This document shows positions 1,281-35,687 of a stretch of DNA of 40,685 bases, piece after piece; position 1 is the stretch's first letter, and every line of letters starts with the position of its first letter. Where the stretch lies: assembly GCF_022430525.1 (NCBI RefSeq), contig NZ_CP092523.1:1-40685 (forward strand). The letters are read 5' to 3'. The notes beneath the pieces are model-generated. The model was not told the origin of the DNA. It searched no databases and saw only the letters and a program-made list of their open reading frames with translations. This DNA is from Cetobacterium somerae (GTDB lineage Bacteria; Fusobacteriota; Fusobacteriia; Fusobacteriales; Fusobacteriaceae). The position numbers and the translations under genes were made by a program.

Positions 1281-1298
1281 GCCATTGATTTTATTGAG
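1281..1298 (-). other. Origin-associated conserved motif, copy 1
   Basis: On the minus strand this reads CTCAATAAAATCAATGGC. It lies 14 bp before the first iteron of the Rep_3 origin, on the strand opposite to the rep gene. The same motif with the same relative placement is found at 35326-35343 next to the second iteron origin, so it is likely a functional part of both origins, such as a host-factor or primosome site. The function is inferred. Confidence 0.6.
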
Positions 1299-1312: not shown

Positions 1313-1422
1313 CTTATTACAAATTGTTACATTACTTATTACGTTTTGTTACATTGCTTATTACAAATTGTTACAAAAGTTATTACATATTGTCGCAGAA
1401 CTTATTACAAATTGTTGCAGTA
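1313..1422 (+). repeat. Five 22-bp iterons of the plasmid replication origin
   Basis: Five direct repeats start at 1313, 1335, 1357, 1379 and 1401, an exact 22-bp period (two helical turns). The best copy reads CTTATTACAAATTGTTACA; later copies drift to TTGTCGCAG and TTGTTGCAG. They lie directly upstream of a Rep_3 initiator gene, the usual arrangement for iteron-controlled theta plasmids, in which the initiator binds the repeats. An AT-rich stretch at about 1200-1270 on the far side is a candidate unwinding region. Confidence 0.9.
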
Positions 1423-1497: not shown

Positions 1498-2676
1498 ATG
1501 AGTAAAAAAGTTGTGAGATATAATAATGATTTAAACTCTGTAACTTTTGGAAGTTTTAGAGAAAAAGAACTCGATCTATTTTTTTCAATATGTTTTAAGT
1601 TAAAAGAGTTAGGAACTGATGAAGTTGAAATAACATTTGAAGAGTTAAAAGAGCTTTCAGATTACTCAAATAGAAATGTAAAAAGGTTCATTAAAGACTT
1701 GGAATCAACTTATGACAAGATGCTAGGGTTAAACATAAAAATGAAGCACTCTGAGTTGAGCTTTGAAAAGTTTAATCTTTTTACAACATACAGTGTTCAT
1801 GGAGATACTAAAAAGATTCGGATTAAGATGAGTGAGAAGTTTGATTATCTTTTAAATAAAATTTTAGGAAACTATACAAAGTTTGATTTAATAGATTTTG
1901 TTCGATTGAAAAGTGTTTATTCTAAAAATCTTTTTAAATTGCTTAAGCAATGGGATAGTGTTAGAGAGTATAAAGTTTCTGTAGTGGATTTTAAGGAGCT
2001 TTTGGGAGTTTCTGATAAATATACAACAGCAAATTTTAACACGAGGGTTTTAGGGCCAATTATGGAGGAATTACCTCACCACTTTAAAGGATTATCTCTA
2101 GAAAAAATTAAAACAGGAAGAAAAGTAACTCATTTAAAGTTTACCTGGGAGATTGAGAAGCAGGAAGTTATTGAAAAAGAGAAAATTGAAATTCAAATAA
2201 CAGAAAGTTTAAATAGTATTTTTGAAAAAGTTAGGAAAAATAGATTTCTTCAAGAGTGGTTAACAGAAAAAAATATTTATAAATTAATTCAAATGTATGA
2301 TGAAAAACCTTTGAAAAAAGGGTTGATGTATCTTTATAAAGAGGTAAAAAAAGAGATGCCGAGCTTTTCCTATTTAATTAAGATAATTGAAAGTGGAATT
2401 GAGGAACAAGAGTTTGATATTAAAGTTATGAAAGATAAAACTGTGGTTGATGAAAAAGTGGAGGAAATATCAAAAGAAGTAATAGAAAGTGAAGAAGTTG
2501 AGAATCCATTATTACTAGCTTATTCAAAGATGCCAAAAGCTATTCAAGATATGCTTTTAGATCAGGCTAAAGATTTGTACATGAAAGATGTTAATATTAA
2601 AAAGATGAATGCAACACATGAGAAGTTTTTTAAAGCAGCTCAAAAAAGTTACATACTAAAAGTTCTAGGGTCTTAA
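1498..2676 (+). CDS. Rep_3-family plasmid replication initiator
   Basis: This 392-residue protein has the layout of RepB/RepE-type initiators: two winged-helix domains over about residues 1-230 (features include TFGSFREKELDLFFSICFKL, RFIKDLESTYDKMLGLNIKM, FDYLLNKILGNYTKFDL and VVDFKELLGVSDKY). It binds iterons and opens the origin. A further acidic and lysine-rich segment of about 150 residues follows, longer than in the shortest family members. The start is the ATG after GAGGTG; five iterons and a self-regulated promoter lie upstream. The next gene, a KAP NTPase, starts 55 bp downstream in the same direction and may be co-transcribed. It is one of three likely initiators here. Confidence 0.9.
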   Translation: MSKKVVRYNNDLNSVTFGSFREKELDLFFSICFKLKELGTDEVEITFEELKELSDYSNRNVKRFIKDLESTYDKMLGLNIKMKHSELSFEKFNLFTTYSVHGDTKKIRIKMSEKFDYLLNKILGNYTKFDLIDFVRLKSVYSKNLFKLLKQWDSVREYKVSVVDFKELLGVSDKYTTANFNTRVLGPIMEELPHHFKGLSLEKIKTGRKVTHLKFTWEIEKQEVIEKEKIEIQITESLNSIFEKVRKNRFLQEWLTEKNIYKLIQMYDEKPLKKGLMYLYKEVKKEMPSFSYLIKIIESGIEEQEFDIKVMKDKTVVDEKVEEISKEVIESEEVENPLLLAYSKMPKAIQDMLLDQAKDLYMKDVNIKKMNATHEKFFKAAQKSYILKVLGS

Positions 2677-8825: not shown

Positions 8826-8932
8826 GATATGGTATTAAATCAGTAAAATCAATGATTAAAGCCTTTTATTTACAATTCATGGGTTATATGATACACTGAA
8901 GGGCAAAAAATAAAAAGGAGTTAATTTTAATT

Positions 8933-9730
8933 ATGAAAAAAAGAGTGTTTTATATTTTAAATATTTTTCTAATTTTATCATTTCAGTTGCTAGCTTTAAA
9001 TTTTACTGAAAATAAAAAAATTGAAGAGATATTTGAAAAGAATAAATTAGAAGGAACTTTTGTCCTTTATGACGCACAAAATAATAGTTTCACTGGTTAC
9101 AATAAAAAAAGAGCAGAAGTACAATTTTATCCAGCTTCTACTTTTAAAATTTACAACTCTCTAATTGGATTAAACACTGGAGTTGTTAAGAATGTAGATG
9201 ATATTTTTTACAAATATAATGGTGAGAAAGTATTTTTAGAAAGTTGGGCTCAAGATTCAAATTTAAGATATGCTATTAAAGTTTCACAAGTTCCTGCTTA
9301 TCAATTGTTAGCTAGAAAAATTGGAACAGAAAAAATGCAAGAAGAAATCAATAAATTAAATTTTGGAAATAAAAAAATTGGAGAAGAAGTTGATCAATTT
9401 TGGTTAAGAGGACCTCTAAAAATTAGTGCTGTAGAGCAATGTGAGTTATTAGCTAAATTAGCAAAAAATGAATTACCATACACTAAAGATATTCAAAAGC
9501 AAGTTCAAGAAATAACAGTTTTAGAAAAGACTGAAGAGTGGACTATGCACGGAAAAACTGGATGGGCAACTTCAAATATAGAAATTCCAGTTGGATGGTT
9601 TGTTGGTTGGGTAGAAAAAGATGGCAAGGTATACAGTTTTGCTATAAACTTAGATATGAAAGAAGGTAAAAATTTACCTAAGCGTGAAGAAATGGCAAAG
9701 GAATCTTTAAAAGCCTTAAATATTATATAG
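8933..9730 (+). CDS. Class D beta-lactamase, OXA type
   Basis: A 265-residue secreted enzyme that hydrolyses beta-lactam antibiotics. A signal peptide covers about residues 1-22 (positive start, then a leucine/isoleucine-rich stretch). All class D motifs are present: STFK at 69-72 (catalytic Ser69 and the lysine that becomes carboxylated), SQV at 118-120, FGN at 144-146, Trp157, and KTG at 208-210. GGAG precedes the ATG and a perfect terminator follows. The gene stands alone, with no regulator. It is AT-rich like its surroundings, so it is native to this group of hosts; OXA-85-like enzymes are known in Fusobacterium. The family is certain; the exact allele is not. Confidence 0.95.
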   Translation: MKKRVFYILNIFLILSFQLLALNFTENKKIEEIFEKNKLEGTFVLYDAQNNSFTGYNKKRAEVQFYPASTFKIYNSLIGLNTGVVKNVDDIFYKYNGEKVFLESWAQDSNLRYAIKVSQVPAYQLLARKIGTEKMQEEINKLNFGNKKIGEEVDQFWLRGPLKISAVEQCELLAKLAKNELPYTKDIQKQVQEITVLEKTEEWTMHGKTGWATSNIEIPVGWFVGWVEKDGKVYSFAINLDMKEGKNLPKREEMAKESLKALNII

Positions 9731-18961: not shown

Positions 18962-19056
18962 TGACTGAAAAAGAAAAATGTATTGCTGGAAAGTTATATA
19001 ATGCAAATTTGGTGCCAAAGGACAAAAAAACCGACGCGAGGCCAATATTAAAATAG
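18961..19056 (+). pseudogene. Truncated maltose/sugar O-acetyltransferase
   Basis: The 31-codon frame starts MTEKEKCIAGKLYNAN, the typical beginning of maltose O-acetyltransferase (Maa/NodL group), but stops after 31 codons where the family continues for about 150 more. The start overlaps the DUF1349 stop codon, so the intact ancestor was translationally coupled to it. The left-handed helix domain is gone. Confidence 0.7.
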
Positions 19057-20936: not shown

Positions 20937-21012
20937 AAATGCTCACTTAAATGCTCACATGTTATTAATTTTTTTTAAAAAACTCAATAAAATCAAGGAG
21001 ATAAATGCTCAC
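20937..21012 (+). repeat. AAATGCTCAC repeats around a third origin-motif copy
   Basis: AAATGCTCAC starts at 20937, 20949 and 21003. Between the second and third copies lies CTCAATAAAATCAAGGAG (20983-21000), close to the motif found at the two iteron origins. No initiator gene is adjacent, so this may be an origin remnant or a site used by an initiator encoded elsewhere on the plasmid. Confidence 0.5.
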
Positions 21013-25229: not shown

Positions 25230-25406
25230 TTGTCGATAGAGAATAAAGAAGAATTTCTATGACATCGACAGATGTAGGAAAGTGTAGCAGGGAGAGTGGT
25301 AATTTAATTTTAGCACAAACTTAATTCTAACTTTTATGAAAAACCTATCTGTTCGACATATTGGACAGTTAAAATCATCAACTATAGATAGTTAAAATCA
25401 CTGCCA
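25230..25406 (+). promoter_or_regulatory. Probable CRISPR leader
   Basis: About 180 bp of AT-rich DNA before the first intact repeat. It contains an inverted repeat TGTCGAT...ATCGACA (about 25230-25267) and two direct copies of AGTTAAAATCA (25367-25377 and 25390-25400) 23 bp apart. The other end of the array has a decayed repeat, which puts the leader on this side. Promoter boxes are not clear. Confidence 0.5.
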
Positions 25407-25612
25407 GTCTATATCCACAATAGTGGAATTATAACATCTCAACATCATCATGTGAATACAAGACTTTATGTCTATATCCACAATAGTGGAATTATAACTC
25501 AACATAAATTATTATGTTTTTATCAATTGATGAGTCTATATCCACAATAGTGGAATTATAACTTAACCAATTTGCCGTACCTTTTCTTCTTGCAAATGTC
25601 TATATCCACAAT
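25407..25612 (+). CRISPR. Short CRISPR array of type VI (Cas13)
   Basis: Three identical 29-bp repeats at 25407-25435, 25470-25498 and 25534-25562, and a fourth cut off after 15 bases (25598-25612). The repeat begins GTCTATATCC, has the hairpin CCAC-AATA-GTGG, and ends GGAATTATAAC. The three spacers are 34, 35 and 35 bp. The truncated repeat marks the distal end, so transcription is probably on the plus strand, towards the cas13 gene that runs on the minus strand. No cas1 or cas2 is present, so new spacers cannot be gained without help. No spacer matches the rest of the plasmid by eye. Confidence 0.93.
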
Positions 25613-25760: not shown

Positions 25761-27839
25761 TTATTTCGTTCCATAAACAATAGTTTTTCCAAAAATATAT
25801 CCACTTCTCAGATCAAACTTAAACTCAATCTTTTTCACACTATGCTTAGGAACTACTGTTACAACTCCACCTTTTTCACAGCATAAATAATATTGATTTT
25901 CTAATATAGACTTTTCATCAATAATATACACATCACTATCTTTATCTCTTTTAACCTTTATTATAAAAGATTCAGTTTCTCCTGCAGCTGCCTTGTAAAC
26001 ATTTATAGTTATTATTTTTTCTTCATCATAGATAAATTTTTCAATAACCTTTTTCTTTAATTTCTTTACAACCTGTTCCTTATAAACACCCATTAAATCA
26101 GAACTATCTTTTATTAAAATTCCATTTCTAGTTTTCTCATCTAACTTTAAAAATGGTATATTATCTACTTTTATAGAGGTAAAAATTCCCTTGTTTTCAT
26201 CTATAGATTCCACTTCATCAGCAATACTTCTCAATTTATTTGCTCTGTCATATACTTTATTTAAATTATCATAATCAAGATTTAATCTATATTTTTTCAT
26301 AAGTTCATCATTTTGCTTTTTCATCAAATCCCTTTTAGTATCTATAATGTCACTTGGAATCAACCTTCTCTGATTGAAAATAAACCTCTCTTTTTTCATG
26401 TAGTAATCATTCACAAAATCCATACCTAAATCAACTTTATTCAGCTTATTATCTAAAGAAAATTCAATAGCACTTCTAACATTTTCGTTAAGTTTCAATT
26501 CATTTTTAAAGAGATCTACAATTAACTCTTTTAAATTTAAATGAGCAATAGAATTTCTAATTTTAGCTTTATTTTTATAATCTTTTTTATTAATTATCTT
26601 TAATAAATTAGAAAAATTAAAAAAGCCATCTTTTCCTTCATCTTTAACAAAAGTCAAGGTTTCTTCTAAATTAATACTTTTATTTTGAGCAAGTTTTAAT
26701 AACCCGTGAATCTCTATATCGTTATAAAGTTTAAATACATTTTGATAGTATTTAAAAATAGGCAGCAGCATATTTTTATTAAATATCCCAACTTCATCAG
26801 TGGATTTGTACTCTAGATGTTTAACATTTAGTTCTAATAATTCAAAATACCTCTTCATATCTTCATGATTAGATATAGAGTACTTTATAATTTCATAATT
26901 TTTTATATTTTTCTCAAAGAGACGAATTTTGTGGAAGAACCCATCATCAGATAACTTTTTTAACTTTTCATTGAGTTTTTCATCACTTAAACTCTCATCA
27001 CTTTCATCTAAGAAATCCACATTTTTTATATTGTAATAATGTGTTTTAACAAATCCCAAGAAGTCCCCTTTAAACTCAACAGGTAACAGCAAATAGTTTA
27101 AAATATAAAATTTAAACAGATTATTTTTTGAATCAACATCTAAATACAAACTATCTCTTTTATTAAACTCATCTTGCATCCTCTTTAGTTGATTTTCTAG
27201 CTTTCCAAGGTCAAAGATACTCTTCTCTCCTCTTTTAATTTTAGGTACTCTAAAGTTTAGATACTCCTCTTTCTTCTTCAAATACTCCTGGATTTTTTCT
27301 AAATTAGTTGGATCAAATTTATTTTTAAACTCTTTTAAATCCCCATTAAATTCAATTGTTAAAAAAGCATAAGCTACTTGGAGCTTATATTTCAATCTAA
27401 ATAGAGAGTTGTTTTTAGTAATCTCTTCCATCTGCTTTTTAAGTTCTAAAAGCTCGGAATTAATATTTGTTATCCTAGTTTTACTTTTAATTCCATTAAT
27501 CTCGTTATTGTAGTCTTCCACTAGGTTTTTTCTTTTGTTATATAATTTTTTATAGATATTAGATGTATGAATATCCCAAAAGTACGGAGTATTTTCCATT
27601 AGTTTAAAGTGTGACTCCATTCGATTTAAATTTTTCTTTGAAAGGTCATTTTTTTTAGAAAAACTTTTTATAGCATCCATTTCATTTTGAAAATTTTCAA
27701 CAATTAACTTTTTAAAATCAGAATCCTCCACACCATCACAAGTAAAAAATGTATTTATAAACTTATTAAATCCACTTTTATTACTACATAAAGTGTTGTA
27801 GTACGAGTATAGTTTCTTTATATTCTTAAGTTTTCCCAA
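25761..27839 (-). CDS. cas13: Cas13 (type VI effector), C-terminal part with HEPN2, cut off by an insertion
   Basis: This 692-codon frame is the second part of a cas13 gene split by a 398-bp insertion. It carries the second HEPN motif R-x4-H as RNSIAH (Arg428 of this part; about 806 in the rejoined protein). The apparent TTG start at 27839 is just the old codon at the insertion site and has no ribosome-binding site, so it is probably not translated alone. Removing the insertion with one copy of its 5-bp duplication joins both parts in one frame, giving 1070 residues. Cas13c of Fusobacterium is of similar size, so subtype VI-C is likely; VI-A is not excluded. Cas13 binds crRNA and cuts RNA through its two HEPN domains, which here are on separate pieces. 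Confidence 0.88.
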   Translation of the reverse strand: MGKLKNIKKLYSYYNTLCSNKSGFNKFINTFFTCDGVEDSDFKKLIVENFQNEMDAIKSFSKKNDLSKKNLNRMESHFKLMENTPYFWDIHTSNIYKKLYNKRKNLVEDYNNEINGIKSKTRITNINSELLELKKQMEEITKNNSLFRLKYKLQVAYAFLTIEFNGDLKEFKNKFDPTNLEKIQEYLKKKEEYLNFRVPKIKRGEKSIFDLGKLENQLKRMQDEFNKRDSLYLDVDSKNNLFKFYILNYLLLPVEFKGDFLGFVKTHYYNIKNVDFLDESDESLSDEKLNEKLKKLSDDGFFHKIRLFEKNIKNYEIIKYSISNHEDMKRYFELLELNVKHLEYKSTDEVGIFNKNMLLPIFKYYQNVFKLYNDIEIHGLLKLAQNKSINLEETLTFVKDEGKDGFFNFSNLLKIINKKDYKNKAKIRNSIAHLNLKELIVDLFKNELKLNENVRSAIEFSLDNKLNKVDLGMDFVNDYYMKKERFIFNQRRLIPSDIIDTKRDLMKKQNDELMKKYRLNLDYDNLNKVYDRANKLRSIADEVESIDENKGIFTSIKVDNIPFLKLDEKTRNGILIKDSSDLMGVYKEQVVKKLKKKVIEKFIYDEEKIITINVYKAAAGETESFIIKVKRDKDSDVYIIDEKSILENQYYLCCEKGGVVTVVPKHSVKKIEFKFDLRSGYIFGKTIVYGTK

Positions 27840-27843
27840 AATA

Positions 27844-28241
27844 GGGGTTCCGTCAGGAAAACGCGGTTTTACAACGTTAAGAAAATTAAAAAATTAATCG
27901 AACCTAATAAAATCAATATCTTATACCGTTCTGCTCCCGAAAACGCGGAATAACAACGCTAAGAACTGATTTTTAAGGATTTTTTGATTTTTTTTAAAAT
28001 TTAACAACGTTAAGGATTAAAAAACAAGCCTATTGAGACACTGAAAACCCTTATTTTTCAATGGGTCATAGAATATCTCAATAGAGTACAATCTATTGAA
28101 ACATTTTGATTTTTGAGACAATCTTTAAAAATTTTAGTTTTTTAAGAACAAAAAAGTCTATAACCTTAATAAAATCAAAGGCTTGTACGGTGTTTCAACA
28201 TTCCTTAGCGTTGTTATTCCGCGTTTTCCTGATGGGACCCC
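27844..28241. mobile_element. 398-bp MITE-like insertion in cas13
   Basis: The ends are 40-bp inverted repeats with 33 matches, starting GGGGTTCCGTCAGGAAAACG on the left and GGGGTCCCATCAGGAAAACG on the right (read inward). AAATA is duplicated on both sides (27839-27843 and 28242-28246). There is no transposase gene. Inside, GAAAACGCGG...CGCTAAGAA (27939-27965) repeats the end sequence in direct orientation, and AACAACGTTAAGGA (about 28003-28016) repeats part of it. The motif AATAAAATCAA appears twice (27907-27917, 28168-28178), similar to the plasmid origin motif. A transposase acting in trans is required; none is in the window. The family was not recognised. Confidence 0.92.
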
Positions 28242-29376
28242 AAATAGAAAGTTCTTCATCTCCATCAAGGTAGTTAGTTTTATTTTCAATTTTAAACTCC
28301 CCTATAAGTTTTGTATATCTGAAGAAGTTTAAATCAAGAAGGTTTTTAAGATTATCACAACCTCTATTTTCAAAAAGGTTTTCAAAGTACATGTAGTCGT
28401 AATGCATTAAAGCATGCCTAAACTCAGAAAAAATATCTACAATCTTTTTAAGATCCTGCTTTAGATTTTCTTTAGAGCTATATCCAGAGAGCTCTGACAT
28501 TTTAATTTTCAAACTTTTATTCAACAATTCAAGCTGTTCAATTTTTCGTTTATTTCCATTTTTATGACTAAAAAGTACTTTTAACTCCTCAATCTCTTTG
28601 TTATTTTTAGAAATTCTTTTTTCCAGTTGGTTAACTCTGTTTTCAACCTCTTTTGAGAGGGTACTATAAACATAATCTGTAATTTTTTCTAATCGTTTAT
28701 CTAATAAAGGAGTATTATTTTTAGAGAGTTTCCAAACCTCTGTAATGCCCTCCTCTTTTAAAGGAGCACATAAAAAATCATTTATTAGTGCAAAGTATAT
28801 TAGAAGATTTGAACGATAATTTAGGAATCGTTTAATCTTATAAATTTTTAAAGAGTCAATCTCATCCACTGAAACTCTAGCTATTTCAGAGTAATTTCGG
28901 CAAACCTCTTTAGATAAAAGTTTTCGTTCTGTTTGAGAGGTTCTATTTCTTAGTTTTATTCTCTCTCCACTAACATCTTTTTTCTGTTCCTCCATTTTAT
29001 CCTCTACCTCAGCAAAGATAACATTAGTAGTTTTTTCTTTTAAACTTAATGTTACTTTATATCTTCGAATCTCTTTATTTAAAATTTTATCAAATTTAGT
29101 AATAATAAAACTATTTTTATCACCAGGAGAATTTCCCATGGTGTCATATGAAAAACTATATCTATTTCTCTCTTTCTCTTTAGATTTAAAACTTTTTATA
29201 ATAACTTTTCTAGATGTTAAATCTATGTATGAATCTAAGTTAAAAGTATCAACGCCCCCCTGTTTTTGATACAGTACCTTCAACTCTTTTATCCCTATCA
29301 TATCGTAATTGGATAAAATTATTCTAATAATAGAACTTCTATTTTGCTTAGATCCATATATTTTATTTTTTTCCAC
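28195..29376 (-). CDS. cas13: Cas13 (type VI effector), N-terminal part with HEPN1, cut off by an insertion
   Basis: The first part of the split cas13 gene. I place the start at GTG 29376 because GGAGG lies seven bases before it; an ATG seven codons upstream overlaps that site. The first HEPN motif is RHALMH (Arg320, His325), in IFSEFRHALMHYDY. A coiled-coil-like helix (about 250-290) precedes it. The natural reading ends at 28242; the last 15 codons, up to a stop at 28195, come from the insertion. Without the C-terminal part the protein has only one half of the composite RNase site and should be inactive. GGAGG and a good start context suggest the gene was functional until recently. Confidence 0.88.
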   Translation of the reverse strand: MEKNKIYGSKQNRSSIIRIILSNYDMIGIKELKVLYQKQGGVDTFNLDSYIDLTSRKVIIKSFKSKEKERNRYSFSYDTMGNSPGDKNSFIITKFDKILNKEIRRYKVTLSLKEKTTNVIFAEVEDKMEEQKKDVSGERIKLRNRTSQTERKLLSKEVCRNYSEIARVSVDEIDSLKIYKIKRFLNYRSNLLIYFALINDFLCAPLKEEGITEVWKLSKNNTPLLDKRLEKITDYVYSTLSKEVENRVNQLEKRISKNNKEIEELKVLFSHKNGNKRKIEQLELLNKSLKIKMSELSGYSSKENLKQDLKKIVDIFSEFRHALMHYDYMYFENLFENRGCDNLKNLLDLNFFRYTKLIGEFKIENKTNYLDGDEELSIWGPIRKTRNNNAKEC

Positions 29377-29458
29377 ATTCACCCCTCCTATGTACAAATT
29401 TTAATAAAATTTACTTTTTAACTTTATTAGATAAAGCTATATTATGTCCCCCACGATA

Positions 29459-33153: not shown

Positions 33154-34974
33154 TTATTTTAATTTTTTTACAATTACTTCATTTATCTCTTCTAAAGTTA
33201 TATTTTTTGTAATAATTTTAGTTCCTAATTCCAATAAAGTTTCTTTTTTAATCTCTTTTAATCTCTCTTCAGAAAGATCAAAAATATTTCTATAAAGTTC
33301 AACATTTGTACTAATATAATCAGTATAATAGTTTATATCATCTATTAAACTTAAATCCACATTTTTTTCTTTTGGAATCTCTTCAATAACTGATTTTGGT
33401 TTCTCACTTTTTAGGAGATTATTTTTTAAAATATACTCAGCAATTAATCTATTCTTAGCAGCATTAAAAGCTAATTTTTGAATTTTAGTTTCTTGGCCAC
33501 ACTCTTCTATGTATGCTCTATAAACTTTTTCTTGGAGTTTTTCTTTTTCTTCAGATGACAGAGCTGAAAAATATTCTAACTCTCTTTCATAATTTTTCGG
33601 AGTCTCATCTTTATTTAAAAACTCCTCAGAAGCGTTTAAAACATCTTTTTTAGGCGTTTGTATTACAATAGCCTCATCTTCACACCAATTATTCTCCAAA
33701 GCTTTAATAAAGTATGCTCTGACCTTTTCAACTTTATTTTTTTTCATGTATATAGCTACTGATTCAACTTTTGTGTATCCATATTCTAAAATTGCCTCTT
33801 TAATAGTTTTTGGCATAGTTTTTAAACTTCTTGCTTTACTTGGCATAAGTCCTAAAATTTTATCAATCATCTCTTGAGTTACAATTACTGTAGATTCTAT
33901 TGGAGTACTCTTTTCAATAATTTCAGCATCCTCTATCATCTCGTGTTCTGTGTCACTAACAGTTGTTTCTGTTAATAGTTTTCTAAAATCATTTCGGTCT
34001 TCAAAAAATCGCTGTTGTTTCTCCTCTTTTGATTTTTCATGAAAGAAGATCTCAATCTCTGATTTTTCCCACGTCGATTCTTTTATTATTTTAAAATCCT
34101 CTATTAAATTTTTATTTTTAAGTTCTATAAAAGCTTTTTCCAAAGTTTTAATAGTATGTGCTATATTTCTTTTATCATATTTTAGTGGTATTCTTTTTAT
34201 TAAAAACAAACTATCAATATTTAAGTGAAGATTATCAAATCTAAGTTTTTCTATTAACATATAAATTGTTCTAGCAGTACTAGTTCCTATATCTAAAAGA
34301 ATTCCTGAGTTATATACCATATATCCCTTTTGAATAATATTGCTATAGAAATGATCTGAAATATTTATTTCATAAATTTCTTTAATCCTTTTATCTGGTA
34401 TCTCTTTTCTATATTTTGAGTTTTCTTTCAAAGAAAGAGTTATTATTTTTAAAGATAGTATTTGAGTACTAATTTCTTCTTTTATAACTCCTTTTTTCTC
34501 TGACGAATACATTGTATTTTTAAAATTATAATTTGTTTCTGATAATCTTAAAAGTGAATTTTTAATAACAGTTCCATAAGAAGCATTTGAACCTATTTTT
34601 AATTTATCTCTAAGTTCTGTTGAGGTAACCATAAATTTTTTTGGCATTCCTCTTTCTTTCATTATTTGCATTAAAGCTATAAAAATTTTTTCTTCCATCT
34701 CTCCTGGAATATAATTCCCAGCTGAAGGTTTAACTGTTATGTAAGTATCTCGATTTTTATTAAAATAATACTTAATTATTTGGTTTATTTTTCTCTTTGT
34801 ATTTTTAGAAAAGATAGGGAACTGAACAATATTTATGTCCATTCTTACAAGATTCTTATTTTTTATAAAAGATTCTTCTATATAAAAATTTTCCTCTACA
34901 ATTTCTGTTTCAGGTGTATCTATAACTTCTTCCCACCAAGGAGTATTTTTTTTTGTAACTTCTTTCTTAGACAT
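33154..34974 (-). CDS. Large replication initiator protein (RepA-like)
   Basis: A 606-residue protein. The start is the ATG at 34974 after GGAGGA; the ATG nine codons upstream lies inside an iteron copy and has no ribosome-binding site. The region of about residues 40-310 resembles initiator domains: NYIPGEMEEKIFIALMQIMK, VTSTELRDKLKIGSNASYGT, LSETNYNFKNTMYSSEKKGV and LLDIGTSTARTIYMLIEKLR. The C-terminal half is charged and helical and includes repeats of acidic patches. Upstream are five regular 22-bp iterons plus weaker copies, as expected for the binding site of this protein. It probably drives the second origin. I am less sure of the family than for the Rep_3 gene. Confidence 0.8.
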   Translation of the reverse strand: MSKKEVTKKNTPWWEEVIDTPETEIVEENFYIEESFIKNKNLVRMDINIVQFPIFSKNTKRKINQIIKYYFNKNRDTYITVKPSAGNYIPGEMEEKIFIALMQIMKERGMPKKFMVTSTELRDKLKIGSNASYGTVIKNSLLRLSETNYNFKNTMYSSEKKGVIKEEISTQILSLKIITLSLKENSKYRKEIPDKRIKEIYEINISDHFYSNIIQKGYMVYNSGILLDIGTSTARTIYMLIEKLRFDNLHLNIDSLFLIKRIPLKYDKRNIAHTIKTLEKAFIELKNKNLIEDFKIIKESTWEKSEIEIFFHEKSKEEKQQRFFEDRNDFRKLLTETTVSDTEHEMIEDAEIIEKSTPIESTVIVTQEMIDKILGLMPSKARSLKTMPKTIKEAILEYGYTKVESVAIYMKKNKVEKVRAYFIKALENNWCEDEAIVIQTPKKDVLNASEEFLNKDETPKNYERELEYFSALSSEEKEKLQEKVYRAYIEECGQETKIQKLAFNAAKNRLIAEYILKNNLLKSEKPKSVIEEIPKEKNVDLSLIDDINYYTDYISTNVELYRNIFDLSEERLKEIKKETLLELGTKIITKNITLEEINEVIVKKLK

Positions 34975-34995
34975 TAAATATCCTCCACTTTTTTT

Positions 34996-35175
34996 CGTCA
35001 TTACCCAATGAGATTTTTATAAAGTATCCATTTTTTTATTAAAAATATCATTATATAATAACGAAACTTTCATTATATAGTTACGATTTCTCTAATTTTA
35101 ATCTTTTTTTTTATAAAAATCAAATTTTTTTTAAAGATATCATTATATAATAACGAAATCTTATTATATTATATA
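34996..35175. repeat. Scattered iteron-like repeats before the large rep gene
   Basis: Looser copies of the origin repeat: CGTCATTACCCAATGAG (34996-35012, inverted, near the start codon), and TCATTATATAATAACGAAA-like copies near 35047, 35070 and 35140. The inverted copy beside the gene is likely an operator for self-regulation. AT-rich DNA between them may be the unwinding region. Confidence 0.7.
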
Positions 35176-35196: not shown

Positions 35197-35306
35197 GATA
35201 TCATTGGGTAATGACGAAGATATCATTATATAATGACGAAAGTCTCATTAGGTAATGACGAAAGTCTCATTATATAATGACGAAACTATCATTGGATAAT
35301 GACGAA
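35197..35306 (+). repeat. Five 22-bp iterons of the second origin
   Basis: Direct repeats start at 35197, 35219, 35241, 35263 and 35285, an exact 22-bp step. The form is TCATTATATAATGACGAA, with the inner bases alternating between ATATAA and (A/G)G(G/A)TAA. The part TCATTATATAATGA is itself a palindrome. They face the large rep gene and lie 19 bp from the shared origin motif. Confidence 0.9.
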
Positions 35307-35325
35307 AGATAAAATGATATATAAC

Positions 35326-35343
35326 CTCAATAAAATCAATGGT
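35326..35343 (+). other. Origin-associated conserved motif, copy 2
   Basis: CTCAATAAAATCAATGGT differs in one base from the minus-strand motif at 1281-1298. In both places it lies on the side of the iterons away from rep, 14-19 bp from them, and on the strand opposite to rep. Confidence 0.65.
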
Positions 35344-35687
35344 CCAAATGGTGTTTTTGGGCGTTTTTTTTTGTACATAACAATATAACAATATTTACAA
35401 TATAAACAACTATATACAATGTAAAAATTTAAATAAATTGAAGATAAAAATAATATTTATTAATTTTTATAAAAAGTGTATTCAAAACACATTTTTTATT
35501 GGATATTTATATAATGTAAATACACTTTTAAAACTTATTTTAATAATTTAACTTTTAAGTAACAAACAAAGCTTGAAAAAAAAGTATATTTAGAATATAT
35601 TAAATAGTATGATTAATAAATTAAAATTCAAAGAATTGATAATAGAGAAAATAAATAAAACAATAGCAGAGAGGTTAGGAGGATAAA
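35344..35687 (+). promoter_or_regulatory. Control region before parA
   Basis: No clear gene is present. ACAATAT is repeated at short distance (about 35379-35425). AAAAGTGTATT (35472-35482) and AAATACACTTTT (35518-35529) form an inverted pair around a possible promoter TTGGAT...TAATGT. A 25-codon frame from 35609 ends in the parA ribosome-binding site but has none of its own. The repeats are candidate binding sites for autoregulation by the partition proteins. Confidence 0.4.

Follow-up and report, generated by a model that had tools for sequence, protein, structure and literature searches.

A 17-bp sequence common to plasmid iteron origins, the chromosomal origin and Tn3-family transposon ends of Fusobacteriaceae is a putative docking site for an IHF/HU-family protein

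The window analysed here is the whole of contig C5 (40,685 bp) of the 2.97-Mb Cetobacterium somerae genome G000 and represents a complete plasmid. It carries two initiator genes, each accompanied by a 22-bp iteron array and, just beyond the array, an exact copy of CTCAATAAAATCAATGG (Table 1). These two copies bear out the original prediction that a single motif accompanies both arrays, except that the motif spans 17 bp and not 18 bp. Its placement on the strand opposite to rep, also predicted, holds for the window and for all rep2-type origins but fails at five loci (L001, L021, L024, L082 and L274), where the motif lies on the rep strand. The two iteron sets and their initiators had further been described as unrelated; the iteron sequences do differ, but "unrelated" is too strong for a Rep3 protein and a distant RPA-type relative, and the 22-bp period is common to both. 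Profile alignment of rep2 with the RPA-type chromosomal initiator described below gave an hhalign E of 7.8e-5, and the PLSDB relatives of rep2 are found on Cetobacterium somerae plasmids and one Sebaldella plasmid. The short repeats between motif copy 2 and parA are a possible partition site.

Table 1. Motif copies, replication genes and neighbouring features in the 40,685-bp window.
Feature	Position	Strand	Remarks
Motif copy 1, exact CTCAATAAAATCAATGG	1282..1298	(-)	14 bp past rep1 iterons
rep1 iteron array	1313..1416		22-bp period, 4.7 copies
rep1, Rep3-family initiator	1498..2676	(+)	PF01051 5.9e-23, PF21205 6.7e-14
Motif match, 3 mismatches	8839..8855	(+)	Upstream of class D beta-lactamase-like gene
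Class D beta-lactamase-like ORF	8933-9730		STFK motif spotted by eye
Truncated class-B Tn3 TIR (GGCCTCGCGTCGG...)	19002..19043	(-)	No motif behind TIR
Motif variant, 2 mismatches	20983..20999	(+)	Amid three AAATGCTCAC repeats
CRISPR-like repeat array	25406-25612		
cas13c	25761-29397		Split by TIME; PADLOC Cas13c E 1e-102 and 2e-194 (two halves)
TIME, Tn3-derived miniature element	27844..28241		38-bp TIRs, 5-bp target duplication AAATA, inserted in cas13c
Weak motif variant CCTAATAAAATCAATAT, 4 mismatches	27903..27919	(+)	21 bp inside left TIR of TIME
Motif variant, 2 mismatches	28165..28181	(+)	In TIME, 22 bp inside right 38-bp Tn3-type TIR, reverse orientation
rep2, 615-aa initiator	33154..35001	(-)	No Pfam match; distant kin of chromosomal RPA-type initiator
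rep2 iteron array	35198..35308		22-bp period, 5 copies
Motif copy 2, exact CTCAATAAAATCAATGG	35326..35342	(+)	17-18 bp past rep2 iterons
ACAATATAAACAAT-type repeats with GTACATAACAATAT	35370-35430		Conserved at rep2-type origins, adjoining parA (35688)

Further forms of the motif are scattered over the plasmid. With the two exact copies and the forms at 20983, 28165 and 8839, the 17-mer has five matches at up to three mismatches; shuffles gave an expectation of 0.5 at this limit, and five were reached by 0 of 100. The third form that had been reported amid repeats is present, but the three AAATGCTCAC copies around it (at 20937, 20949 and 21003), although real, are no more than chance would supply. 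A third origin may once have lain in this region, which has no rep gene nearby. The match upstream of the beta-lactamase-like gene is probably fortuitous. Two weaker forms assigned to a MITE were both recovered, the element being a TIME.

We scanned 64 distinct rep upstream regions of 700 bp each, using 500 permuted motifs as the control. At up to two, three and four mismatches the motif was found in 12, 16 and 23 regions, a count in which related origins appear separately and one region (L286) is a TIME near a rep gene; the permuted means were 0.016, 0.34 and 3.6, and the real counts were never reached in the 500 permutations (maximum 16 at up to four mismatches). In about twenty origins, which account for nearly all sites, 22-bp iteron arrays of differing sequence end 10-23 bp from the motif. 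In all rep2-type origins with enough upstream DNA it occupies the opposite strand at a distance of 300-363 bp from the start codon, and Rep3-type origins carry it in either orientation. By genus, the motif occurs in 20 of 34 rep upstreams in Cetobacterium (g1), 2 of 7 in its sister genus (g2) and 1 of 23 in other genera, and was missing from 14 of 34 and 22 of 23 in the first and last of these. Most Rep3 plasmids outside Cetobacterium lack the motif. Among the seven named C. somerae plasmids, p5 (two mismatches, gap 19) and p3 (four mismatches, gap 20) have the motif, p6 has a weak form at the expected position, and p1, p2, p4 and p7 have none. Since it is present in only part of the origins and missing from several C. 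somerae plasmids, the motif is common but dispensable. Nearness to the iterons at a fixed spacing would suit a secondary site of the replicon's own initiator, such as an operator or half-iteron. However, the same sequence lies beside initiators that have different iterons, and it also lies inside Tn3 terminal inverted repeats (TIRs) that have no Rep; we consider such a secondary site very unlikely.

The transposon copies belong to a block, GGCCTCGCGTCGG...CACCAAATTTGCAA...[motif], that is repeated on plasmids and chromosomes and forms the TIR of a Tn3-family transposon. In the element at L293 1698-5488 (G006:C57), two inverted TIR copies, identical at 59 of 64 bp including the motif, enclose a serine resolvase (PF00239, 2.3e-22) and a 923-aa Tn3 transposase (PF01526, 1.6e-114). 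A target duplication was looked for at this element and none was seen; the TIME of the window has the 5-bp duplication of the Tn3 family. In the recognised class-B Tn3 TIR copies the motif starts exactly 47 bp inside the end. The second TIR type, that of the window TIME, mostly lacks the motif in other elements. One locus (L042) is a hybrid in which two different Tn3 TIRs stand back to back around one motif copy. This hybrid, together with flanking sequence partly shared between the TIME copy and the rep2-type copies (AACC...motif...GGTGTTT), raises the question whether the origins acquired Tn3 or TIME ends, or whether the motif is a recombination core. The origin copies, however, have no adjoining TIR sequence and are phased with the iterons, and the motif recurs in many different origins and chromosomes, so that descent from a mobile element or its target has an even smaller probability than a secondary Rep site. 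XerCD/dif, oriT/nic and rolling-circle nick sites, suggested by the presence of the motif on plasmids and in a TIME, were also dropped as candidates, the motif being no dyad, lying inside TIRs and being phased to iterons.

Searching the 17-mer at up to one mismatch yielded 31 sites in 61 Fusobacteriaceae genomes versus 4 for the reversed pattern, and 2 versus 1 in the other 37 genomes of the phylum. The 31 family sites comprise nine class-B Tn3 ends, eight iteron plasmid origins, two at the chromosomal origin, one on another plasmid near a possible replication gene, six in coding sequence and five unclassified. The six coding copies look like chance, and those in coding sequence of Fusobacterium-type chromosomes (ELNKING, SQLNQWP) were rejected as functional sites for the same reason. 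These copies and the AT-rich core are what could be said for the motif as a whole being an accident of AT-rich DNA; the permutation and reversed-pattern controls refute this, leaving it a negligible probability. A separate locus (L025, G012:C36, 1501-1668) has two copies separated by 151 bp; the gene near them (1726-2661) is possibly a phage-like replication gene and not an iteron rep. In an exact 16-mer scan of the genome contigs of the collection, unrelated organisms dominate among the matches listed; an exact 17-mer scan of viral contigs gave matches, and window positions 35300-35440 had no BLASTN match in PLSDB. The sequence, positions, phasing and distribution of the motif are direct observations: it is specific to the family and has three homes, namely plasmid iteron origins, the chromosomal origin, and Tn3-family transposon ends and TIMEs. 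The initial observation is thus real and the distribution much broader than first stated, and the suggestion of a host-factor site used by many plasmids stands in substance, with about one-third of the family's iteron origins (20 of 34 in Cetobacterium), the chromosomal origin and Tn3-family ends carrying it. As for the helicase-loading or primase site suggested alongside, the sequence pattern is more in keeping with a bending protein of the IHF/HU type.

The chromosomal sites lie next to rpmH. In the rnpA neighbourhoods of 30 genomes, a divergent gene of ~600 aa, which is not dnaA, adjoins rpmH-rnpA-yidD-yidC-jag; for 26 of these genomes the start of the gene could be read directly, and three of the remaining four ran into contig ends. 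The rep-rpmH intergenic region contains iterons close to ATATTATTGATAATATACA at spacings of mostly 53, 64, 95, 104-106 and 115-118 bp, values close to multiples of the helical repeat (10.5). At up to three mismatches the motif has 38 sites there in 20 of 29 genomes, with a permuted mean of 0.16 and maximum of 5. Its position relative to the iterons is tightly constrained. Across 12 genomes of Cetobacterium and the sister genus, at up to four mismatches, 15 of 16 forward copies are at -34/-33 from an iteron and 19 of 20 reverse copies at -32..-34 or +27..+30. In the complete chromosome of G025, the GC skew goes from negative to positive on passing from the 3,305-3,310 kb to the 3,310-3,315 kb block (5 kb each), and the initiator gene (3,306.9-3,308.7 kb) and rnpA (3,309.8 kb) lie at this switch; roughly half a chromosome off, between 1.22 and 1.40 Mb, it switches back.

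Homologues of the chromosomal initiator were found by protein search in 59 of 61 Fusobacteriaceae. Loci with plasmid-type initiators include G000:C1:1-1848 and 1903000-1904440 as well as L360-L390, L409-L416, L419 and L478-L497. The protein matches Pfam RPA (PF10134) at 8.4e-8, above the cut-off. AlphaFold modelling from 9 sequences was poor (pLDDT 50), and a 23-sequence model (pLDDT 67) was used, in which the core (residues 40-345) has a pLDDT of mostly 75-90. The best match of this core by VIA-align is to RctB domains 2-3 (5tbf; Z 14.2, rmsd 5.1, 241 aligned), with RepE of F (Z about 11, rmsd 3.7-4) and pi of R6K (Z 10.4) also matching; Foldseek likewise ranked RctB best (5.4e-5), then RepE and pi. 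With both a predicted Rep fold and neighbouring iterons, the chromosomal initiator is, on this model, of the plasmid type and RepE/RctB-like. Outside Fusobacteriaceae it was found only on the second replicon of G062 (Haliovirga abyssi pHIC, 297,551 bp), whose initiator (L487/L477) is the closest outside the family, at about 42% identity over the core, and adjoins parA/parB, hinting that a secondary-replicon origin was captured by the main chromosome. The PLSDB entry "Fusobacterium vincentii plasmid pSB055A" (L468, NZ_CP084075.1) is 2.1 Mb long and has a chromosomal-type initiator; it is apparently a chromosome under the wrong label.

The DnaA C-terminal domain (PF08299) was detected in 0 of 25 Fusobacteriaceae genomes tested and in 16 of 16 order-mates outside the family, and a DnaA protein search of the 61 family genomes returned only short AAA-ATPase or similar fragments and no DnaA-like protein. 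From these searches Fusobacteriaceae seem to have lost dnaA. By 2020, no dnaA-less free-living species was on record apart from cyanobacteria (PMC7198777). In the open-licence literature on Fusobacterium dnaA/oriC we found no report of dnaA absence; coverage was incomplete, and we therefore make no priority claim for a dnaA-less plasmid-type chromosomal origin. Reached by following the motif, this chromosomal-origin result is larger than the motif result itself.

The motif is not a DnaA box, as its sequence is unrelated to TTATNCACA and no DnaA was detected in the family. It could instead stand in for one, serving a family-specific host replication factor (a helicase recruiter or the chromosomal Rep) through which plasmids and replicative transposons would load the replisome. 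Motif and dnaA loss share the same taxonomic boundary, and, besides chromosomal and plasmid origins, the motif marks the ends of transposons dependent on a replication fork. The chromosomal initiator, however, has iterons of its own that do not resemble the motif, no candidate protein came to light, and the helical phasing and the IHF-like spacing described below fit a bending protein well; we regard such a factor as unlikely. A wider scheme would have DnaA-oriC replaced across this free-living family by the RepE/RctB-like initiator and its iteron origin, with the motif as a shared DnaA-box substitute that recruits host replication machinery for chromosome, plasmids and replicative transposons; we offer it tentatively, as possible but improbable.

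Column counts were made over four site classes (51 chromosomal, 28 plasmid, 18 class-B TIR and 7 TIME sites, which are not independent in evolution). CAATAAAATCAA is near invariant over the four classes and a WATCAA core is present in 86-96% of sites, the former partly circular since it was searched for and the latter partly built into the search. At column 19, which the searched word does not cover, T occurs in 84% of chromosomal, 79% of plasmid, 89% of class-B TIR and 100% of TIME sites, where its local background frequencies are 39, 29, 34 and 51%, respectively; column 20 holds A or T in 82-100%. With AATCAA placed at columns 9-14, column 19 falls on the first T of the IHF consensus WATCAANNNNTTR (as quoted in PMC3281130), giving the WATCAA-N4-T spacing. 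At the second T of TTR, T is frequent in chromosomal and TIME sites alone, plasmids and class-B TIRs mostly having A, and the third position is R in 22-100% depending on the class. G000 encodes two HU/IHF-family paralogs (PF00216; 1-8 in relatives), both of which keep the RNPxTG arm; their matches to the NCBIfam IHF-alpha, IHF-beta and HU models are below every cut-off, and a PDB search with one of them matched IHF and HU chains. Besides these sub-cut-off matches and the A at the second T, other observations speak against an IHF reading: conservation of the left half (CAATAA) exceeds what the short IHF consensus requires, HU/IHF homologs exist outside the family, where the motif is absent, and within the family the motif is not universal.

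No single replicon-encoded protein accounts for the plasmid, chromosomal and Tn3 sites, and the binder is therefore most likely encoded by the host. We favour an IHF/HU-type docking site because the T19 spacing fits the IHF consensus, IHF has precedents at origins and Tn3 ends, and the host has two paralogs. The motif would then be a putative docking site for a host IHF/HU-family DNA-bending protein, accessory to origins and replicative-transposon ends in Fusobacteriaceae, a reading to which we assign a probability of about 0.6. From the sequence we infer the identity of the binder, the bending and a requirement in replication or transposition. One or both paralogs would bind the motif and bend the DNA sharply; the bend could join iteron-bound initiators together or bring them against the AT-rich opening region, and at transposon ends it may stabilise the transposase on the TIR. 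At the chromosomal origin, the motif alternates in helical phase with the iterons. Chromosome and plasmids could share one accessory site because there is no detectable DnaA and a plasmid-type initiator occupies the rpmH locus.

What began as a two-copy curiosity thus becomes a common sequence code of Fusobacteriaceae replication origins and a concrete target for finding the host factor, and it brings to light a plasmid-like architecture at the chromosomal origin of a family in which dnaA is not detected. If this is true, DnaA-free chromosome initiation and a plasmid-type initiator driving a main chromosome become testable.

IHF sites are known at the R6K, pSC101 and P1 origins and at E. coli oriC (PMC4980987). 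Like these, the motif is a single short site beside iterons or initiator boxes with a WATCAA-N4-T core, where a host bending protein is predicted to bind and would aid the initiator without substituting for it. Unlike them, it has a longer, near-invariant CAATAAAATCAAnG core that is common to many replicons and the chromosome of one family, and no DnaA was detected in the fusobacterial host. The likeness to DnaA boxes near plasmid iterons is that of a putative host-factor site flanking iterons; the sequence itself is unrelated to theirs. Wiater and Grindley reportedly described, in 1988, IHF sites just inside the terminal repeats of gamma-delta (Tn1000). The fusobacterial elements resemble gamma-delta in having a predicted host bending-protein site adjoining the Tn3-family TIR at both ends, and differ in carrying there almost the same sequence as the origins of plasmids and chromosomes do. 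IHF sites also occur at Vibrio ori2. As in Vibrio chromosome II with RctB, the fusobacterial chromosomal origin is iteron-based and its modelled initiator is closest to RctB domains 2-3; unlike in Vibrio, this initiator is at the rpmH locus of the main chromosome, in a family where dnaA is not detected.
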